IMG/VR virus record: IMGVR_UViG_3300017605_000781 | Coordinates: 1 to 44,433 of that record | From: a virus | Strand: one strand, 5' to 3' | Length of the DNA stretch: 44,433 nt | Shown: positions 8,492 through 44,433 of the stretch, one piece after another | Numbering within the stretch: the stretch's first letter is position 1 | How the letters are laid out: every line of letters begins with the position of its first letter | Notes under the pieces: generated by a model | Told to the model about the DNA's origin: nothing | The model's database searches: none | The model's input: the letters and a program-made list of their open reading frames with translations, nothing else | Position numbers and translations under genes: made by a program

Positions 8492-9769
8492 ATGGCAAGA
8501 AATTACAAGGTTGGAACCAATAACAGCGGCGTTTACAGCCGGACATATCCCCCTTATTGTGGCACTTTTACCACACTTAGGACGATATCGGCTATCATTA
8601 AAGCGCCTGTTTCTGAATTTACCCATGTTCAGATGGTTTTGCAAAACCACCAGGTGTTAACCACTCCAACATTGCAAGGCGCACTGGTGGCGGTTACGAA
8701 CACGGCAACATCCATTGGGACGAAGGTTGTTCCATCAACCGGGAACACAATTACCAATAACAGCGCTACCGGTTGGTCACAGGTCACTTTCAGTAATGGT
8801 GCTGTGACCACCCCAACACTGCCAGCCGTTGTCAACAATGACCCAAGCGGCGTGGCTGACGTCAGCTTTGATGGCGAATTCTTATTCTCGGATTGGATTG
8901 CATGCCGTTCTATCCAGCCAAACGATAACTCCGGGAATAATAATCCTTATCTGATGTACCGAACGGCCTTCGATTCTCCCCAGAACTGGTATCCGCTGGA
9001 CATTGACGCAACCGACAAAAATCGTAGCGATTACTACGAAGCTCATCAATCAAGCGCTACGGATGCAACCGGCGTAACCAACCCATCCACAATGACCACT
9101 GGTACGGCTTCGGGCATTTGCCAGATTCGGGGAATCAATTTCAGGAATGCCAATTCAGGCACTCGTAATATTAAAATCATGGCCGTGGGAGACTCCATTA
9201 CTCAAGGCTATGCAACGTCTACCGGCTTCCGCTCCTGGACGTGGCAGGCGGAACGGCAACTGCAACTTGCCGGTTTCGACGTCACGATTATGAACGAGGG
9301 TTGGGTCGGTTGTCCAACGATTAGCTATAACAACTTCGGTTTAAAGCGACTGGGCAAAGACAAATACAGACCAAACATTGTTTTGTATTCTATGTATTCC
9401 CCCAACGACTTGAAAACACAGGCCGATATGGACGCGATGTACACTCGTGGAATGCAGTTTGCGGACACTTGCAAGAGTTTGGGCATCCAATGTATTTTTA
9501 CTTTCCTGCTTCCCTGGAATACGTTGAGCCTTACAGATGATAATATTCGAAAAGGTTTAATTACGCGAACCAAGGCCCAGACACAATACGATGTTCTGGA
9601 TATGACGCAGGTTACAGGGAACCGCTTGAGTCCAGAGGATATTATTGCAGCATACGATAGTGGCGACGGTATCCATGCCAATGATATCGGAAACGAAGTG
9701 ATGGGGAATTATACCGCTAAATGGTTAACAAACTTCATATACAGAAACGCCGGGTTATATGGGATATAA
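8492..9769 (+). CDS. Tail-associated SGNH/GDSL esterase
   Basis: A 425-residue protein. The N-terminal half (1-220) is beta-rich and probably attaches to the virion. The C-terminal half is an SGNH hydrolase: block I VGDSIT near residue 232, block II Gly in NEGWVGCPT near 270, block III SPND near 300, and block V DGIH near 391-394. Together these supply the Ser, Gly, Asn and Asp-His of the family. Such enzymes on phage tails usually remove acetyl groups from O-antigen or capsule. The substrate here is unknown. Confidence 0.85.
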   Translation: MARNYKVGTNNSGVYSRTYPPYCGTFTTLRTISAIIKAPVSEFTHVQMVLQNHQVLTTPTLQGALVAVTNTATSIGTKVVPSTGNTITNNSATGWSQVTFSNGAVTTPTLPAVVNNDPSGVADVSFDGEFLFSDWIACRSIQPNDNSGNNNPYLMYRTAFDSPQNWYPLDIDATDKNRSDYYEAHQSSATDATGVTNPSTMTTGTASGICQIRGINFRNANSGTRNIKIMAVGDSITQGYATSTGFRSWTWQAERQLQLAGFDVTIMNEGWVGCPTISYNNFGLKRLGKDKYRPNIVLYSMYSPNDLKTQADMDAMYTRGMQFADTCKSLGIQCIFTFLLPWNTLSLTDDNIRKGLITRTKAQTQYDVLDMTQVTGNRLSPEDIIAAYDSGDGIHANDIGNEVMGNYTAKWLTNFIYRNAGLYGI

Positions 9770-13347: not shown

Positions 13348-13403
13348 GAAAGCTCTTGTGATGATGAATGCCTGCGTTCCTACGTGGGCAACGTTCGAAA
13401 GAA

Positions 13404-13631
13404 CTAGTCATCCAGGGGCTTTTTTGTTGTTTCCCATTTCTTTGTCTCCACCCAGAAAAACCCGTCCTCAACTACCACGGAATCCCCCTCTCGTGCTAGT
13501 TCGCCGTAGGGAAGTGTTACAAGTCGGTTGTTGATGTTGTCATAGCAGTTATTTACGCCTTTCGTGCCGATCAGATCCATGATCCTCTCGACGCTGGTTG
13601 AACTTCCGTCGTACAAGACTCTCTCCATCAT
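13404..13631 (-). CDS. Small hypothetical protein, end of early block A
   Basis: 75 residues, or 74 from the second Met. GGAGGTGGG lies directly before the ATG pair, and the start overlaps the upstream stop. The acidic C-terminal half suggests a small beta domain (DSVVVEDGFFWVETKKW). No family is recognised. It is the last confident leftward gene. Confidence 0.6.
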   Translation of the reverse strand: MMERVLYDGSSTSVERIMDLIGTKGVNNCYDNINNRLVTLPYGELAREGDSVVVEDGFFWVETKKWETTKKPLDD

Positions 13632-20564: not shown

Positions 20565-20770
20565 GCTCCAATCCTCTCCCTTAATGCAGTGCGTCTATCC
20601 TGTTCCTGGTTGATGCGGGTGTCTTCCTTGTCCGCCCACCGCTGGATGGCCCAAAGCGCCCTCTTATAGAGGCTCAGTTGGCTATCATCCATCCGTTCCA
20701 GGTGGATGCCGCCAATAGCGCCTTCAATCAACGTGTCGAAATAACCGGCATCCGGTATCAAGCAGAACAT
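20561..20770 (-). CDS. Small hypothetical protein
   Basis: 69 residues from the ATG at 20770, joined to the upstream gene as TGATG. Mixed helix with a Trp-rich centre (LWAIQRWADKED). No family is recognised. Confidence 0.55.
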   Translation of the reverse strand: MFCLIPDAGYFDTLIEGAIGGIHLERMDDSQLSLYKRALWAIQRWADKEDTRINQEQDRRTALRERIGA

Positions 20771-21042
20771 CAGGCCCCCTCCCAATAGGCGTAATCAAAG
20801 CTGGGGGCGTGGCTTCTATCTTGCTCTTTCGATTCGTTGAAGATGGAATCGAACCAGAAATCGTCTTCGGTACTGTCTTTCCATCCGCATTCCTGGCAGA
20901 AGGTTTGAGCCCCCACCCACACGCGAATCGCGCCATCCGCAATCACAGCGCCGCAGTCGTCGCATTTCTCTTCTATTTTTAAGTCCCTTTTCGGGAGGCA
21001 GGCCACCGCCTTTTGAACCCACGTATTTGGTTGTGCTACCAT
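20770..21042 (-). CDS. Small zinc-ribbon protein
   Basis: A 90-residue protein. GAGGAT lies close before the ATG. CDDCG near residue 27 and CQECG near 49 form a four-Cys zinc ribbon. The acidic C-terminus is Asp/Glu/Phe/Trp-rich. It may be a nucleic-acid or protein adaptor; the family is not recognised. Confidence 0.6.
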   Translation of the reverse strand: MVAQPNTWVQKAVACLPKRDLKIEEKCDDCGAVIADGAIRVWVGAQTFCQECGWKDSTEDDFWFDSIFNESKEQDRSHAPSFDYAYWEGA

Positions 21043-21386: not shown

Positions 21387-21427
21387 TGGAGCCGCCTGGA
21401 ATCGAACCAAGCCATGCCTATAGCCCC
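21387..21427 (-). ncRNA. tRNA-Ala-like minihelix (acceptor stem plus T-arm, no D or anticodon arm)
   Basis: Read on the minus strand: 5' GGGGCTA, a 9-nt linker, then the T-arm CTTGG-TTCGATT-CCAGG, then CGGCTCC and A. The acceptor halves pair at six of seven positions, with a G3:U70 wobble pair and A73, the alanine identity elements. The first ten bases (GGGGCTATAG) equal the 5' end of a standard bacterial tRNA-Ala. No CCA is encoded. It begins directly after the T run of a leftward terminator. It may be a functional minihelix, a deletion relic of a tRNA-Ala gene, or chance. Confidence 0.4.
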
Positions 21428-21457
21428 AAGAAAAGCCCCGCCATTGCGCAGCGGGGC
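21428..21457 (-). terminator. Leftward rho-independent terminator inside early block A
   Basis: GCCCCGC and GCGGGGC (21435-21441 and 21451-21457) form a perfect 7-bp stem with TTTTCTT after it on the minus strand. It lies between the regulator/46-residue gene and the rest of the leftward genes, so later genes need read-through, antitermination or another promoter. No promoter is obvious downstream. Confidence 0.8.
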
Positions 21458-21473: not shown

Positions 21474-21614
21474 TTAGGTGGTGGTTGGTTGTTTTACTTC
21501 TCTAGGACTCTCTAAATGCGCCTGGTAAGGTTTCGTTAAAAGGTATTCATAATTGGTTTTAAAAGGTTCTTTCGGCTGGTTATGGAGCCAGCCTCCCCGG
21601 TTTTCTGTACTCAT
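21474..21614 (-). CDS. 46-residue hypothetical protein
   Basis: GAGGAG seven bases before the ATG gives a very good start. The product is polar and rich in Lys, Gln, Pro, Tyr (with NRGGWLHNQPKEPFKTNYEY) and ends in three Thr. It is the first well-supported gene after the HTH regulator and is followed by a terminator. Position recalls early regulators such as antiterminators, but no Arg-rich motif is seen. Confidence 0.6.
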   Translation of the reverse strand: MSTENRGGWLHNQPKEPFKTNYEYLLTKPYQAHLESPREVKQPTTT

Positions 21615-21690
21615 TCTTACTCTCCTCGTTAACCCCTACTGGACTCGAACCAGTTCTAACCACCTGGTAGGGCGTGAACCCGGCGGTCAT
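21580..21690 (-). CDS. Doubtful 36-residue ORF overlapping the 46-residue gene
   Basis: Its ATG overlaps the stop of a nine-codon reading frame (MGHPTPGEL, near 21690-21717) that has GAGGA upstream, which suggests leader-peptide coupling. However, the protein sequence (VVRTGSSPVG) is the kind produced by translating a T-arm-like DNA hairpin, so it may be spurious. The rest of 21718-21827 shows only a short CTTG/CAAG repeat. Confidence 0.25.
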   Translation of the reverse strand: MTAGFTPYQVVRTGSSPVGVNEESKNEYRKPGRLAP

Positions 21691-21827
21691 AACTCGCCGG
21701 GTGTTGGGTGTCCCATTATTCCTCAGAGGTCGTCTCTTCGGTGGGATTCAAATTGTCAAAGTTCAAACTGCTCACCTAGAGCGGGCTTGCTTTAAAAAAC
21801 AAGAATTTACAGTGTGTTTAATCTGGG

Positions 21828-22037
21828 TTAGGATTCAGGGTGGATGCAATCCATCAATGCAGATAGTTTGCATTTATAGAGTTTCTGAATTCTGACTAGA
21901 TGCTTTACTCGCGGTGTCACCACTCCTTTTTCCCAGCGGGAATACGCACGAGTTGATACTTTCAAGAGTCTTGACGTCTCCTCTTGAGTTCTGTCAGAAC
22001 GAACACGAAGCTCTTTCAATTTTTCTTTCAAATCCAC
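21828..22037 (-). CDS. HTH (XRE/Cro-CI type) regulator of early block A
   Basis: 69 residues from a GTG at 22037 with AAAGGA upstream. The frame is open to a GTG at 22073, which would make it leaderless given the promoter at 22081-22110. The helix-turn-helix is TQEETSRLLKVSTRAYSRWEKG. The length fits a Cro-like protein or a minimal repressor. It is the first gene of the leftward block and most likely binds the operators at 22079-22105. Confidence 0.8.
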   Translation of the reverse strand: MDLKEKLKELRVRSDRTQEETSRLLKVSTRAYSRWEKGVVTPRVKHLVRIQKLYKCKLSALMDCIHPES

Positions 22038-22078
22038 AGAGAGTGTCCTTTCAGGAAGACCATTTCGTCTCACAAGAA

Positions 22079-22105
22079 TTACTATACAGTAAGACTATTT
22101 AGTCT
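22079..22105. promoter_or_regulatory. Two abutting operators
   Basis: TTACTATACAGTAA (22079-22092) and AGACTATTTAGTCT (22092-22105) are palindromes that share one base and the core ACTAT--AGT. The first covers the -10 and the second fills the spacer of the leftward promoter. They lie between divergent HTH genes, so both regulators may compete here. Confidence 0.7.
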
Positions 22106-22110
22106 GTCAA
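22081..22110 (-). promoter_or_regulatory. Leftward early promoter
   Basis: On the minus strand, TTGACA (22105-22110), 18-bp spacer, TATAGT (22081-22086). A near-consensus sigma70 promoter with operators over the -10 and spacer. The transcript would start near 22074 and read the HTH gene and block A. Confidence 0.75.
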
Positions 22111-22883: not shown

Positions 22884-23876
22884 TTACTTCCACTGCGCCA
22901 ATATTCCCTGCAAGTCTTCTTTGGTGGCGCGTGGCACGTTAACTTGTCGCTTTGGGGTCCCGCCGCCGTGCTTGCAATAGCGCTTGCGAACCTGCACCAG
23001 TTCCGCCGGTTTGCCCGTGGTGGAGAAATAAAACTGCCCACGTTTGAGCGCCTTAATCTGGTCGAAAGAAACCCCTGCCGTATCCAGAAAACTCTTGATG
23101 GCCTTGTAATCTTGTTCGGCTGTGATGCCGCCAAACCAGAACCGGTTGCACTGGGTCAGGATATTCTTGTTTATGGACGCCGGTCGCTGCGTTGCCCAAA
23201 GGCTATCCAACGCCCGCTTGCGGCCACGTTTAGCGACGTGCTGGGACATAGAAAGCGAGTTCGGGCCTTCCTTACTCCCGCCGGCTCCTGTTTGGGGAGC
23301 GAATACCTGGGCCTCTTCGACAACGAGGCGAATCTTTGTTTTAAGAGAATTTTCAAGTTCAAAAAGTTTTTCCGCGATGATAGCGTAGGTTTCGGTTTGT
23401 TCGCCTTCAATCATGTCGGACAGGTCAAACACCACACTCACGCCACGGGTAAGCACGGTTCGGAGAACCTCTTCTATTTTCTCTTCGTCGCTCGGCTCGA
23501 GTGTCACGGTGGCATGGTCTCCACCGGCTACGATGAGCGGGTAACGATCCGCCAGGGTGTACCACTCGCCTTCAGGGTCAATGACACAAACAAGCCCTCC
23601 GGTTTCCAAAGTCTCTTCCAGCAGCACCCCGGCCAGGTAAGACTTCCCCATACCGGAAGAAGCGAGAATTGCATCCCGCTCCCCGCTGTCTTCGTAGTCT
23701 TTTAGGTTTATTTCAAAGGGAGCGCCCGTTTCCACGTTATGCCCCACTTTCAGAATCTGAGGTAACGAACCGCGTTGAACCACCTGAACCGGCTTAGGTG
23801 GTTCAGACACTTTCACCTGTGGTTCAGTCCAACCAAAAGGGGTGAAGTATTCGAGTAGAAAATCTATGACTGCCAT
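22884..23876 (-). CDS. HerA/VirB4-like P-loop ATPase
   Basis: A 330-residue protein. Walker A is ASSGMGKS at residues 72-79 and Walker B is LVVEEAQ at about 184-190. An Arg-finger-like RGRKRALDSLWATQRPA segment follows near 216-232. The N-terminal 45 residues resemble the small HAS-barrel region. HerA ATPases are hexameric DNA translocases, usually paired with the nuclease NurA or with defence nucleases; no such partner is visible here. Last gene of leftward block B, expressed with a small membrane protein. Role unknown: DNA handling, or prophage-encoded exclusion of other phages. Confidence 0.75.
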   Translation of the reverse strand: MAVIDFLLEYFTPFGWTEPQVKVSEPPKPVQVVQRGSLPQILKVGHNVETGAPFEINLKDYEDSGERDAILASSGMGKSYLAGVLLEETLETGGLVCVIDPEGEWYTLADRYPLIVAGGDHATVTLEPSDEEKIEEVLRTVLTRGVSVVFDLSDMIEGEQTETYAIIAEKLFELENSLKTKIRLVVEEAQVFAPQTGAGGSKEGPNSLSMSQHVAKRGRKRALDSLWATQRPASINKNILTQCNRFWFGGITAEQDYKAIKSFLDTAGVSFDQIKALKRGQFYFSTTGKPAELVQVRKRYCKHGGGTPKRQVNVPRATKEDLQGILAQWK

Positions 23877-26012: not shown

Positions 26013-26213
26013 TTATGGTTTAGGTGGTTTGGGTAGGGGTTGCCAGTGGGTTGGATGCAAAATCGGGGAGGATTTCCAAAAACCATTAATCCAACCACGC
26101 TCAGAGCGATATCCCACAAATACTCCTCCTTGTGGTTCTGGGGAGTAGAGTAAAATATCTCCGTTTAGCTCAGTGCATGGTGGGGCGGTCATAATCGGCA
26201 TCCATTCACTCAT
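26013..26213 (-). CDS. DUF551-like small protein
   Basis: A 66-residue protein. MSEWMPIMTAPP at the start and ILHPTHWQPLPKPP at the end are the DUF551 marks, common in phages of enteric and related bacteria. Overlaps the recombinase stop as ATGA. Function unknown. Confidence 0.75.
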   Translation of the reverse strand: MSEWMPIMTAPPCTELNGDILLYSPEPQGGVFVGYRSERGWINGFWKSSPILHPTHWQPLPKPPKP

Positions 26214-26797
26214 AGCAGTCCTACAAGCCTCCTCTTTGCTTCGGAATCACCTTCAATGTATCGCTGGGTCACGTTCAGGCTGGAATGGCCCGCCATTTGT
26301 TGGACATCACGCAAGCTAGCTCCAACCTGGGTAGCCTTGCGAGCCGCCATCGTGATGAATGTCCGCCGCCCGGAGTGGGAAGAGCATCCATGAAAACCCA
26401 GGGATTTATACAGCCTCTGGAACCACATGACCACACTGCCAGCCCCCAGGCGCTCGCCTCGCTCGCTGGTAATAACGTAGTCTTCCGGCTCGCGATCCTT
26501 CAACGCGTTCAGTTCGGCCAGCGCCTTGAAAAGTTCAGGATTTACAGGGACATCCCGCCCTGACTTTCCTTTACTAGCCTTGTTTTCCAGGGAGATGACA
26601 TCCAGCAGATGCCCTTGCCCGTCTGTCACCATTCCCCAGGTGAGAAGGGATATCTCTTTTGCCCGGAGGCCCGCCTTGGCTGATAAGAGGAACATTGCCT
26701 TGTCGCGCTCAGGGTAGCGGGTTTTTTGCAAAAACAGAAGGACGACGCGGGTTTGAACGTCGGTCAGGACTTTAGCCTGTTTGCCTTTACCGGACAT
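26210..26797 (-). CDS. Short tyrosine recombinase (integrase)
   Basis: 195 residues, catalytic domain only. Active-site set: Arg 45 (AGLRAKEIS), Lys near 74-78, His 141 and Arg 144 (SSHSGRRT), His 171 (MAGHSSLNVTQRY) and Tyr 180. It lacks the arm-binding and core-binding N-terminal domains of lambda-type integrases and resembles FimB/FimE-size recombinases. Likely role: prophage integration, or inversion of a DNA segment. It overlaps both neighbouring genes, so it is expressed as part of the operon. No clear attP flanks it. Confidence 0.85.
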   Translation of the reverse strand: MSGKGKQAKVLTDVQTRVVLLFLQKTRYPERDKAMFLLSAKAGLRAKEISLLTWGMVTDGQGHLLDVISLENKASKGKSGRDVPVNPELFKALAELNALKDREPEDYVITSERGERLGAGSVVMWFQRLYKSLGFHGCSSHSGRRTFITMAARKATQVGASLRDVQQMAGHSSLNVTQRYIEGDSEAKRRLVGLL

Positions 26798-43457: not shown

Positions 43458-44433
43458 TGTCCGCAAATTTAGGTGATATCGCCAAACTGGCAACCGCCGC
43501 CAACGCCGCCAAGTATCAAGGTTCTGGTACGGGTGGATGGGGTACGGCGCTTAAATATCTTGGCGCACTTGCTGCCCCGCTGGCAGGCGCTCAACAAACC
43601 GGCGTTGTTCCTGCGTTTTTTAGTGCGTTGGGGAATGTTGGGCAGGTTAAAAACGAATCGGCGTATAACCAGTATCTTAAGAGTGTGGCCGATTATGAGC
43701 GGGCGCGACAGACAGCAACTGACACTAATGACGCCGGAATATTCAAAGCCAGCACAGGCCAGAATATCTCCGGCCCATTCAGCAGGGATTTTGCCAATCA
43801 ACAGACAGAAGCGATTAGGCAAAATAATGCCAATGCAGACAGAAACCGACTCGTTAATGGTGAAAACCTGCAATGGAGTCCTTTCTCTGCTGCAAACGAT
43901 ACACTCACGAATAATGTTCTTGAGCGTCAAGGGAAGCTAGCCGATTCAAACGCCGCCCTGGATGCCGCTAATAGCATATTCAGTGAAGGCCAAAGAGGTA
44001 GCAGTGTCAATGGTGGCGGTGTTATTCCTGGACAATTACGTCAGCCATTTGGCTTTGATGCTGGACAACCTCAAGGTTTGAGTGCTGGAGTGCAGCAAGT
44101 CCAGCCGTCAGTCGTTTCCCCGTTCATTCAAGGTGCCTTGCCAGTGGATCAGATATTTGGTCAGTTTGGTCGTGGCGTCCAGGATGCACAAGAAGCCGGG
44201 AAGCAATCAATTGACCAATTCGGTAATGTGACCACGCGCGATCACCTGACCCGTTCCGATTCTGAGACAGCTAAAAACAATCGCGCCACCGAAAGCATTG
44301 GGCGTACAAACGCTCAAGCTAATATGATCAGTGCGCGTAAGCCATCGGGTGGTGGGGGGAGTCAGAATCCTTACACCATTCCAAACGCCGCTTTAACTAA
44401 TCTAGATCGACAAATTAAGATTGCCAAAAAAGG
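43457..44433 (+). CDS. Internal virion protein, N-terminal part (gene wraps the contig ends)
   Basis: Starts at the TAATG overlap and stays open to the end of the window; it continues in frame at base 142 and ends at 484, giving 439 residues in all. The N-terminus has an Ala/Gly-rich, slightly hydrophobic stretch (LGALAAPLAGAQQ) and a long Asn/Gln/Ala-rich helical part. Reading the window as linear would split or miss this gene. Probably an ejection protein by context. Confidence 0.8.
   Translation, partial: MSANLGDIAKLATAANAAKYQGSGTGGWGTALKYLGALAAPLAGAQQTGVVPAFFSALGNVGQVKNESAYNQYLKSVADYERARQTATDTNDAGIFKASTGQNISGPFSRDFANQQTEAIRQNNANADRNRLVNGENLQWSPFSAANDTLTNNVLERQGKLADSNAALDAANSIFSEGQRGSSVNGGGVIPGQLRQPFGFDAGQPQGLSAGVQQVQPSVVSPFIQGALPVDQIFGQFGRGVQDAQEAGKQSIDQFGNVTTRDHLTRSDSETAKNNRATESIGRTNAQANMISARKPSGGGGSQNPYTIPNAALTNLDRQIKIAKK
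44293..44433. repeat. Right copy of the 141-bp terminal overlap
   Basis: Identical to bases 1-141. The non-redundant length is therefore 44,292 bp. Confidence 0.95.

Follow-up and report, generated by a model that had tools for sequence, protein, structure and literature searches.

A tRNA-Ala-like acceptor and T-arm element in a temperate phage genome, probably the remnant of a tRNA gene

The window analysed here, the whole 44,433-nucleotide stretch of the virus record IMGVR_UViG_3300017605_000781, carries on its minus strand a short tRNA-derived element (element 1, Table 1) in which Ala-type acceptor ends are combined with a T-arm. With moderate confidence, element 1 is regarded as the remnant of a tRNA gene that is carried passively in a temperate phage. 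It lies in the spacer of an early operon, directly after an intrinsic terminator and close to a second, less complete tRNA-like remnant.

Table 1. Coordinates of element 1 and of the features discussed with it
Feature	Position	Strand	Basis or remark
11-mer GGTTCGATTCC, repeat	20845..20855	-	Inside coding ORF 20770-21042; not a T-arm
Element 1: tRNA-Ala-like acceptor and T-arm	21387..21427	-	Sequence, fold, shuffle test
Intrinsic terminator GCCCCGC...GCGGGGC TTTTCTT	21435..21457	-	Ends 7 nt upstream of element 1 G1
46-aa ORF between both remnants	21474..21614	-	RBS just 3′ of element 2; no Pfam match
Element 2: second tRNA-like remnant, without anticodon arm	about 21629..21676	-	Sequence
GC-rich hairpin (CCCGGCG...CGCCGGG), just 5′ of element 2	21683..21705	-	Sequence, fold
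HTH_3 (XRE-type) regulator, first gene of minus-strand early operon	21828..22073	-	Pfam HTH_3 E 4e-11
Sigma70-like promoter TTGACA-18-TATAGT (11/12)	22081..22110	-	Consensus match only
Tyrosine integrase	26210..26797	-	phrog_216, PF00589

Read from 21427 to 21387, the full letters of element 1 are GGGGCTATAGGCATGGCTTGGTTCGATTCCAGGCGGCTCCA, composed in order of GGGGCTATAG, GCATGG, the T-arm CTTGG-TTCGATT-CCAGG, CGGCTCC and A73, with a linker of 6-9 nt between the 5′ half and the T-arm. The 5′ half begins with GGGGCTA and is followed by T8-A9-G10 at the expected place. Six of the seven acceptor pairs form (G1-C72, G2-C71, G3:U70, G4-C69, C5-G68 and U6:G67), G3:U70 and U6:G67 being the two G:U pairs, while A7 and C66 are unpaired as an acceptor position and C66 pairs with G48 instead in the predicted fold. 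This fold joins the acceptor and T stems into one unbroken 12-bp helix (6 + 6 bp), from which 9 nt bulge out, and has an energy of -15.9 kcal/mol, a value that is not unusual in comparison with dinucleotide shuffles (z -1.6).

The initial annotation had described a 5′ acceptor half, a linker, a T-arm and A73 on this strand, with six acceptor pairs including G3:U70, and both the letters and the predicted fold bear this out. Its two caveats are also accurate, as the 11-mer GGTTCGATTCC does recur in a coding gene (Table 1) and the CCA is not encoded, TTTG following directly after A73. The D and anticodon arms are missing, as it had stated, and ARAGORN calls no tRNA at this place, so that element 1 is not a canonical tRNA gene; Rfam at gathering thresholds calls no family there either. 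Element 1 has the acceptor/T helix, the G3:U70 pair and the A73 of an alanine minihelix and lacks an encoded 3′ CCA. It also has the properties of a tRNA fragment in a mobile element, namely a tRNA portion beyond chance that forms no complete cloverleaf and is carried by a mobile genome.

Three matches to the pattern GGTTCRANTCC occur in the window, against 0.27 expected. In 400 first-order resampled (shuffled) windows, with an acceptor half defined by at least 6/7 pairs within 20 nt, T-arms with 5 bp were found at a rate of 0.145 per window, T-arms together with such an acceptor half at 0.03, and those having A73 as well at 0.0025. The full tRNA-type combination, which adds T8-R9-G10, appeared in none of them (0/400), and element 1 is therefore considered to be tRNA-derived; the initial annotation had named a tRNA relic or attP scar among its options. 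The 5′ half is the weaker link in the derivation. Once the 3′ half of element 1 is given, a 5′ half with at least 6/7 pairing is found with P about 0.15, so that pairing alone means little, and 6/7 pairing plus T8-R9-G10 with P about 0.005. This frequent pairing, together with a GGGGCT in element 1 that could reflect the hairpin 3′ arm of the terminator, is what speaks for a product of chance, that is, a random T-arm-like string beside a random half that happens to pair with it, but the absence of the full combination from all shuffled windows and the presence of a second tRNA-like element 220 bp away make such an origin most improbable.

This second remnant, element 2, is located upstream of element 1 in the same spacer and on the same strand, and is composed of CGCCCTA, CAGGTGGTTAGA, ACTGG-TTCGAGT-CCAGT, AGGGGTT and A, with acceptor pairing of only 5/7. 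It has the same T-arm as the tRNA-Val(GAC) of L278, a Vampirovibrionales genome, and matches both ends of a phage tRNA-Met. The CAGGTGGTTAGA segment may be a D-loop remnant, but in L314 similar letters are made up of an anticodon stem together with the variable loop. When host genomes were searched for element 2, the sole result was an orphan 3′ piece of a tRNA, with 2 mismatches, next to a tRNA-Val in L278, and a search for D-loop/T-arm fusions of this type returned only full tRNAs or other fragments. The initial annotation, which gave the letters of element 1 correctly, had described this one element and missed the second remnant, the integrase and a 141-bp repeat at the ends of the window.

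The repeat consists of positions 1-141 and 44293-44433, which are identical, indicating that the genome is complete and either circular or terminally redundant, and the presence of a tyrosine integrase indicates that the phage is temperate. The window also encodes a RecT-like protein and replication genes. A gene for a HerA-like (DUF87) ATPase is found in the early operon (22884-23876, minus strand), and an Rfam DUF3800-VIII RNA motif at 13349-13422 on the plus strand scores 46 bits, above threshold. Relatives of the terminase reach 59-75% identity in IMG/VR, and terminases with ~40% identity belong to prophages in Vampirovibrionales and Gastranaerophilales genomes, from which the host is probably a member of the class Vampirovibrionia.

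Relatives of the phage were found through the terminase and RecT, and none through the regulator or the HerA-like ATPase. Structural genes are common to the window and to G002, G003, G006, G007 and G010, while the early region is not; none of the relatives examined carries element 1, and its region has no homology match in phages or plasmids. No conservation of the kind that the initial annotation had proposed to look for in related phages was found among these relatives. Pieces of tRNA 3′ ends are common in the relatives. In G006, a tRNA-Val 3′ half adjoins the integrase, and L021, L025, L036 and L040 have tRNA 3′ halves located about 0.7 kb beyond the terminase; those of L021 and L036 show 6/7 pairing with a 7-mer located 2-8 nt upstream and are pseudo-minihelices in which a 5′ tRNA end is missing altogether. 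A tRNA of G002 called as Ala(AGC) (G002:C1:5096-5165, minus strand; L098) has C33 and an abnormal anticodon arm, which could fold into 7 bp closed by a 3-nt loop. Another tRNA-like element, at about 9450-9540 on the plus strand of L125 and also in L128, pairs at 7/7 acceptor positions and has a complete T-arm, but shows no recognisable D arm and receives no ARAGORN call.

Strings that resemble minihelices are also present in other phages. A minihelix pattern with the exact Ala 5′ end gave three matches in IMG/VR, none of them the same as element 1, and a looser Ala-type pattern (GGGGCT, a gap, GGTTCRANTCC and GCTCCA) is found in 26 IMG/VR contigs. About half of these 26 come from isolate genomes and represent one kind of prophage junction, GGGGCTAGATGCGGGTTCAAATCCCCCCGGCTCCACCA with its variants, probably a tmRNA 3′ end joined to a phage arm; others belong to longer tRNAs or tmRNAs. 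Divergent prophage junctions (L287 3630-3664, plus strand; L290; L295) have GGGGCT a few bases before a tmRNA-like 3′ end, this GGGGCT being part of a small hairpin in L290, and may represent a recurrent pseudo-minihelix or an integrase site. One of the 26, a 53-nt acceptor/T-arm element with a GGGGCT start and an encoded CCA, at 9576-9625 on the plus strand of L289 and the same in L286, is close to phage tRNA genes and receives no ARAGORN call; it is a better natural minihelix candidate than element 1. In mycobacteriophage Nibb, GGTTCGATTCCCGGCGGCTCCA is located some 90 bp away from the integrase gene, and other phages also carry tRNA fragments. Taken together, the prophage junctions, the L286/L289 element and Nibb show that minihelix-like shapes arise repeatedly from phage tRNA and tmRNA ends.

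Element 1 could also be a working attP, through which the integrase recombines with a host tRNA-Ala or tmRNA at its 3′ end, the 5′ half being simply a phage arm that pairs by chance. The window encodes an integrase, the tRNA 3′ half of G006 and the Nibb string are both situated near one, and the tmRNA-like junctions of other prophages have a GGGGCT flank before GGTTCAAATCC...GGCTCCA. These tRNA- or tmRNA-derived att sites (G006, Nibb and the L287-type prophages) resemble element 1 in having a T-arm and an acceptor 3′ end, sometimes with GGGGCT upstream, but they adjoin an integrase or carry CCA, whereas element 1 does neither; many genes lie in the 4.8 kb that separate it from the integrase. 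Moreover, an attP core should match attB, and the 3′ 22-mer of element 1, GGTTCGATTCCAGGCGGCTCCA, is found in 0/84,980 GTDB bacterial and archaeal species and in no IMG/VR contig, a search that may not cover the records closest to that of the window. Nor do 382 genomes of Vampirovibrionia contain any match to the 22-mer with 2 mismatches or fewer, although the true host may be unsampled; the nearest Vampirovibrionia sequences differ at 3 positions and, in L276 and L277, are tRNA-Ala and tmRNA. Element 2 would be an equal attP candidate. A working attP is considered unlikely; with the integrase at this distance, it would require an unsampled host.

Regarding transcription, the predicted promoter would transcribe the regulator and then the spacer with both remnants. 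No promoter of its own was found for element 1, and given the terminator directly before it, transcription could occur only by read-through. The initial annotation had called element 1 a tRNA-Ala minihelix in its title. Taken as a functional alanine minihelix, this reading is not supported, in view of this context, the lack of conservation, the lack of an Rfam family and the frequent occurrence in phages of tRNA 3′ fragments whose acceptors pair by chance. A functional RNA could be either a transcribed minihelix charged by AlaRS, acting as a decoy or toxic molecule, or a mark at which RNase P/RNase Z would cut between early genes. Consistent with it are the 12-bp predicted helix with G3:U70 and A73, the presence of two tRNA-like elements between early genes, of which element 2 stops just before an RBS, and the behaviour of alanine minihelices, for which the reference list of PMC9976931 has, by title, one study on their charging in vitro (Francklyn and Schimmel 1989) and one on their inhibition of cell growth (Hipps and Schimmel 1995). 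The terminator immediately upstream, the absence of an encoded CCA and of conservation, the 5/7 acceptor of element 2 and a fold z of only -1.6 all argue against it, as does the best Rfam shape match, mascRNA, whose 15.8 bits fall short of the threshold of 42.5, and a functional RNA is considered distinctly unlikely. What points to a charged or decoy minihelix is the predicted shape of the element. It is very unlikely that both elements are kept by selection, as RNase P/Z processing marks or as an Ala-type AlaRS decoy that would be turned on by antitermination past the terminator.

A tmRNA or permuted tmRNA was also considered and rejected, with 10-12 bits against 47 for tmRNA_permuted and 9-12 against 70 for cyano_tmRNA; neither a gathering score nor a second piece with a tag frame was found. 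Element 1 shares the acceptor plus T-arm helix, G3:U70 and A73 with the synthetic alanine minihelix of Francklyn and Schimmel. It also shares a short tRNA-like acceptor and T-arm shape with mascRNA/menRNA (RF01684), but these are eukaryotic lncRNA products and the score of element 1 is far under the threshold of that family. The alanine minihelix is reportedly a synthetic RNA with CCA and without the 9-nt bulge.

The reading of element 1 as a passively carried tRNA-gene remnant is supported by a tRNA signature above chance, a second anticodon-less piece in the same spacer, a complete temperate genome, the tRNA 3′ pieces that are common in relatives and the terminator directly before the element. 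On the other hand, GGGGCTA and T8-A9-G10 are in place at a low conditional probability, the six acceptor pairs and G48:C66 keep a 12-bp helix, and G3:U70 and A73 are intact; element 1 is tidier than random decay need leave. In addition, no parent tRNA was found among the GTDB species or the Vampirovibrionia genomes searched with the 22-mer. Partial tRNA genes that result from mobile-element integration are documented (review PMC9897764), and like them element 1 keeps the T-arm and the acceptor 3′ side in a temperate element; unlike them, it also has a tRNA-Ala-like 5′ end and no matching host tRNA was found. Element 1 would most probably derive from a captured tRNA through internal deletion of the D and anticodon arms or, alternatively, from an old integration/excision event in which a tRNA 3′ end was left behind. 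Element 1 would then be carried passively, probably without function, and any transcript would be read-through past the terminator.

A literature search found no natural phage alanine minihelix. To our knowledge, none is known so far, and element 1 would be the first if it were expressed and charged. In that case, it would be relevant to phage interference with aminoacylation, and if it is only a relic, it serves as a caution that tRNA fragments of temperate phages can resemble minihelices by chance.
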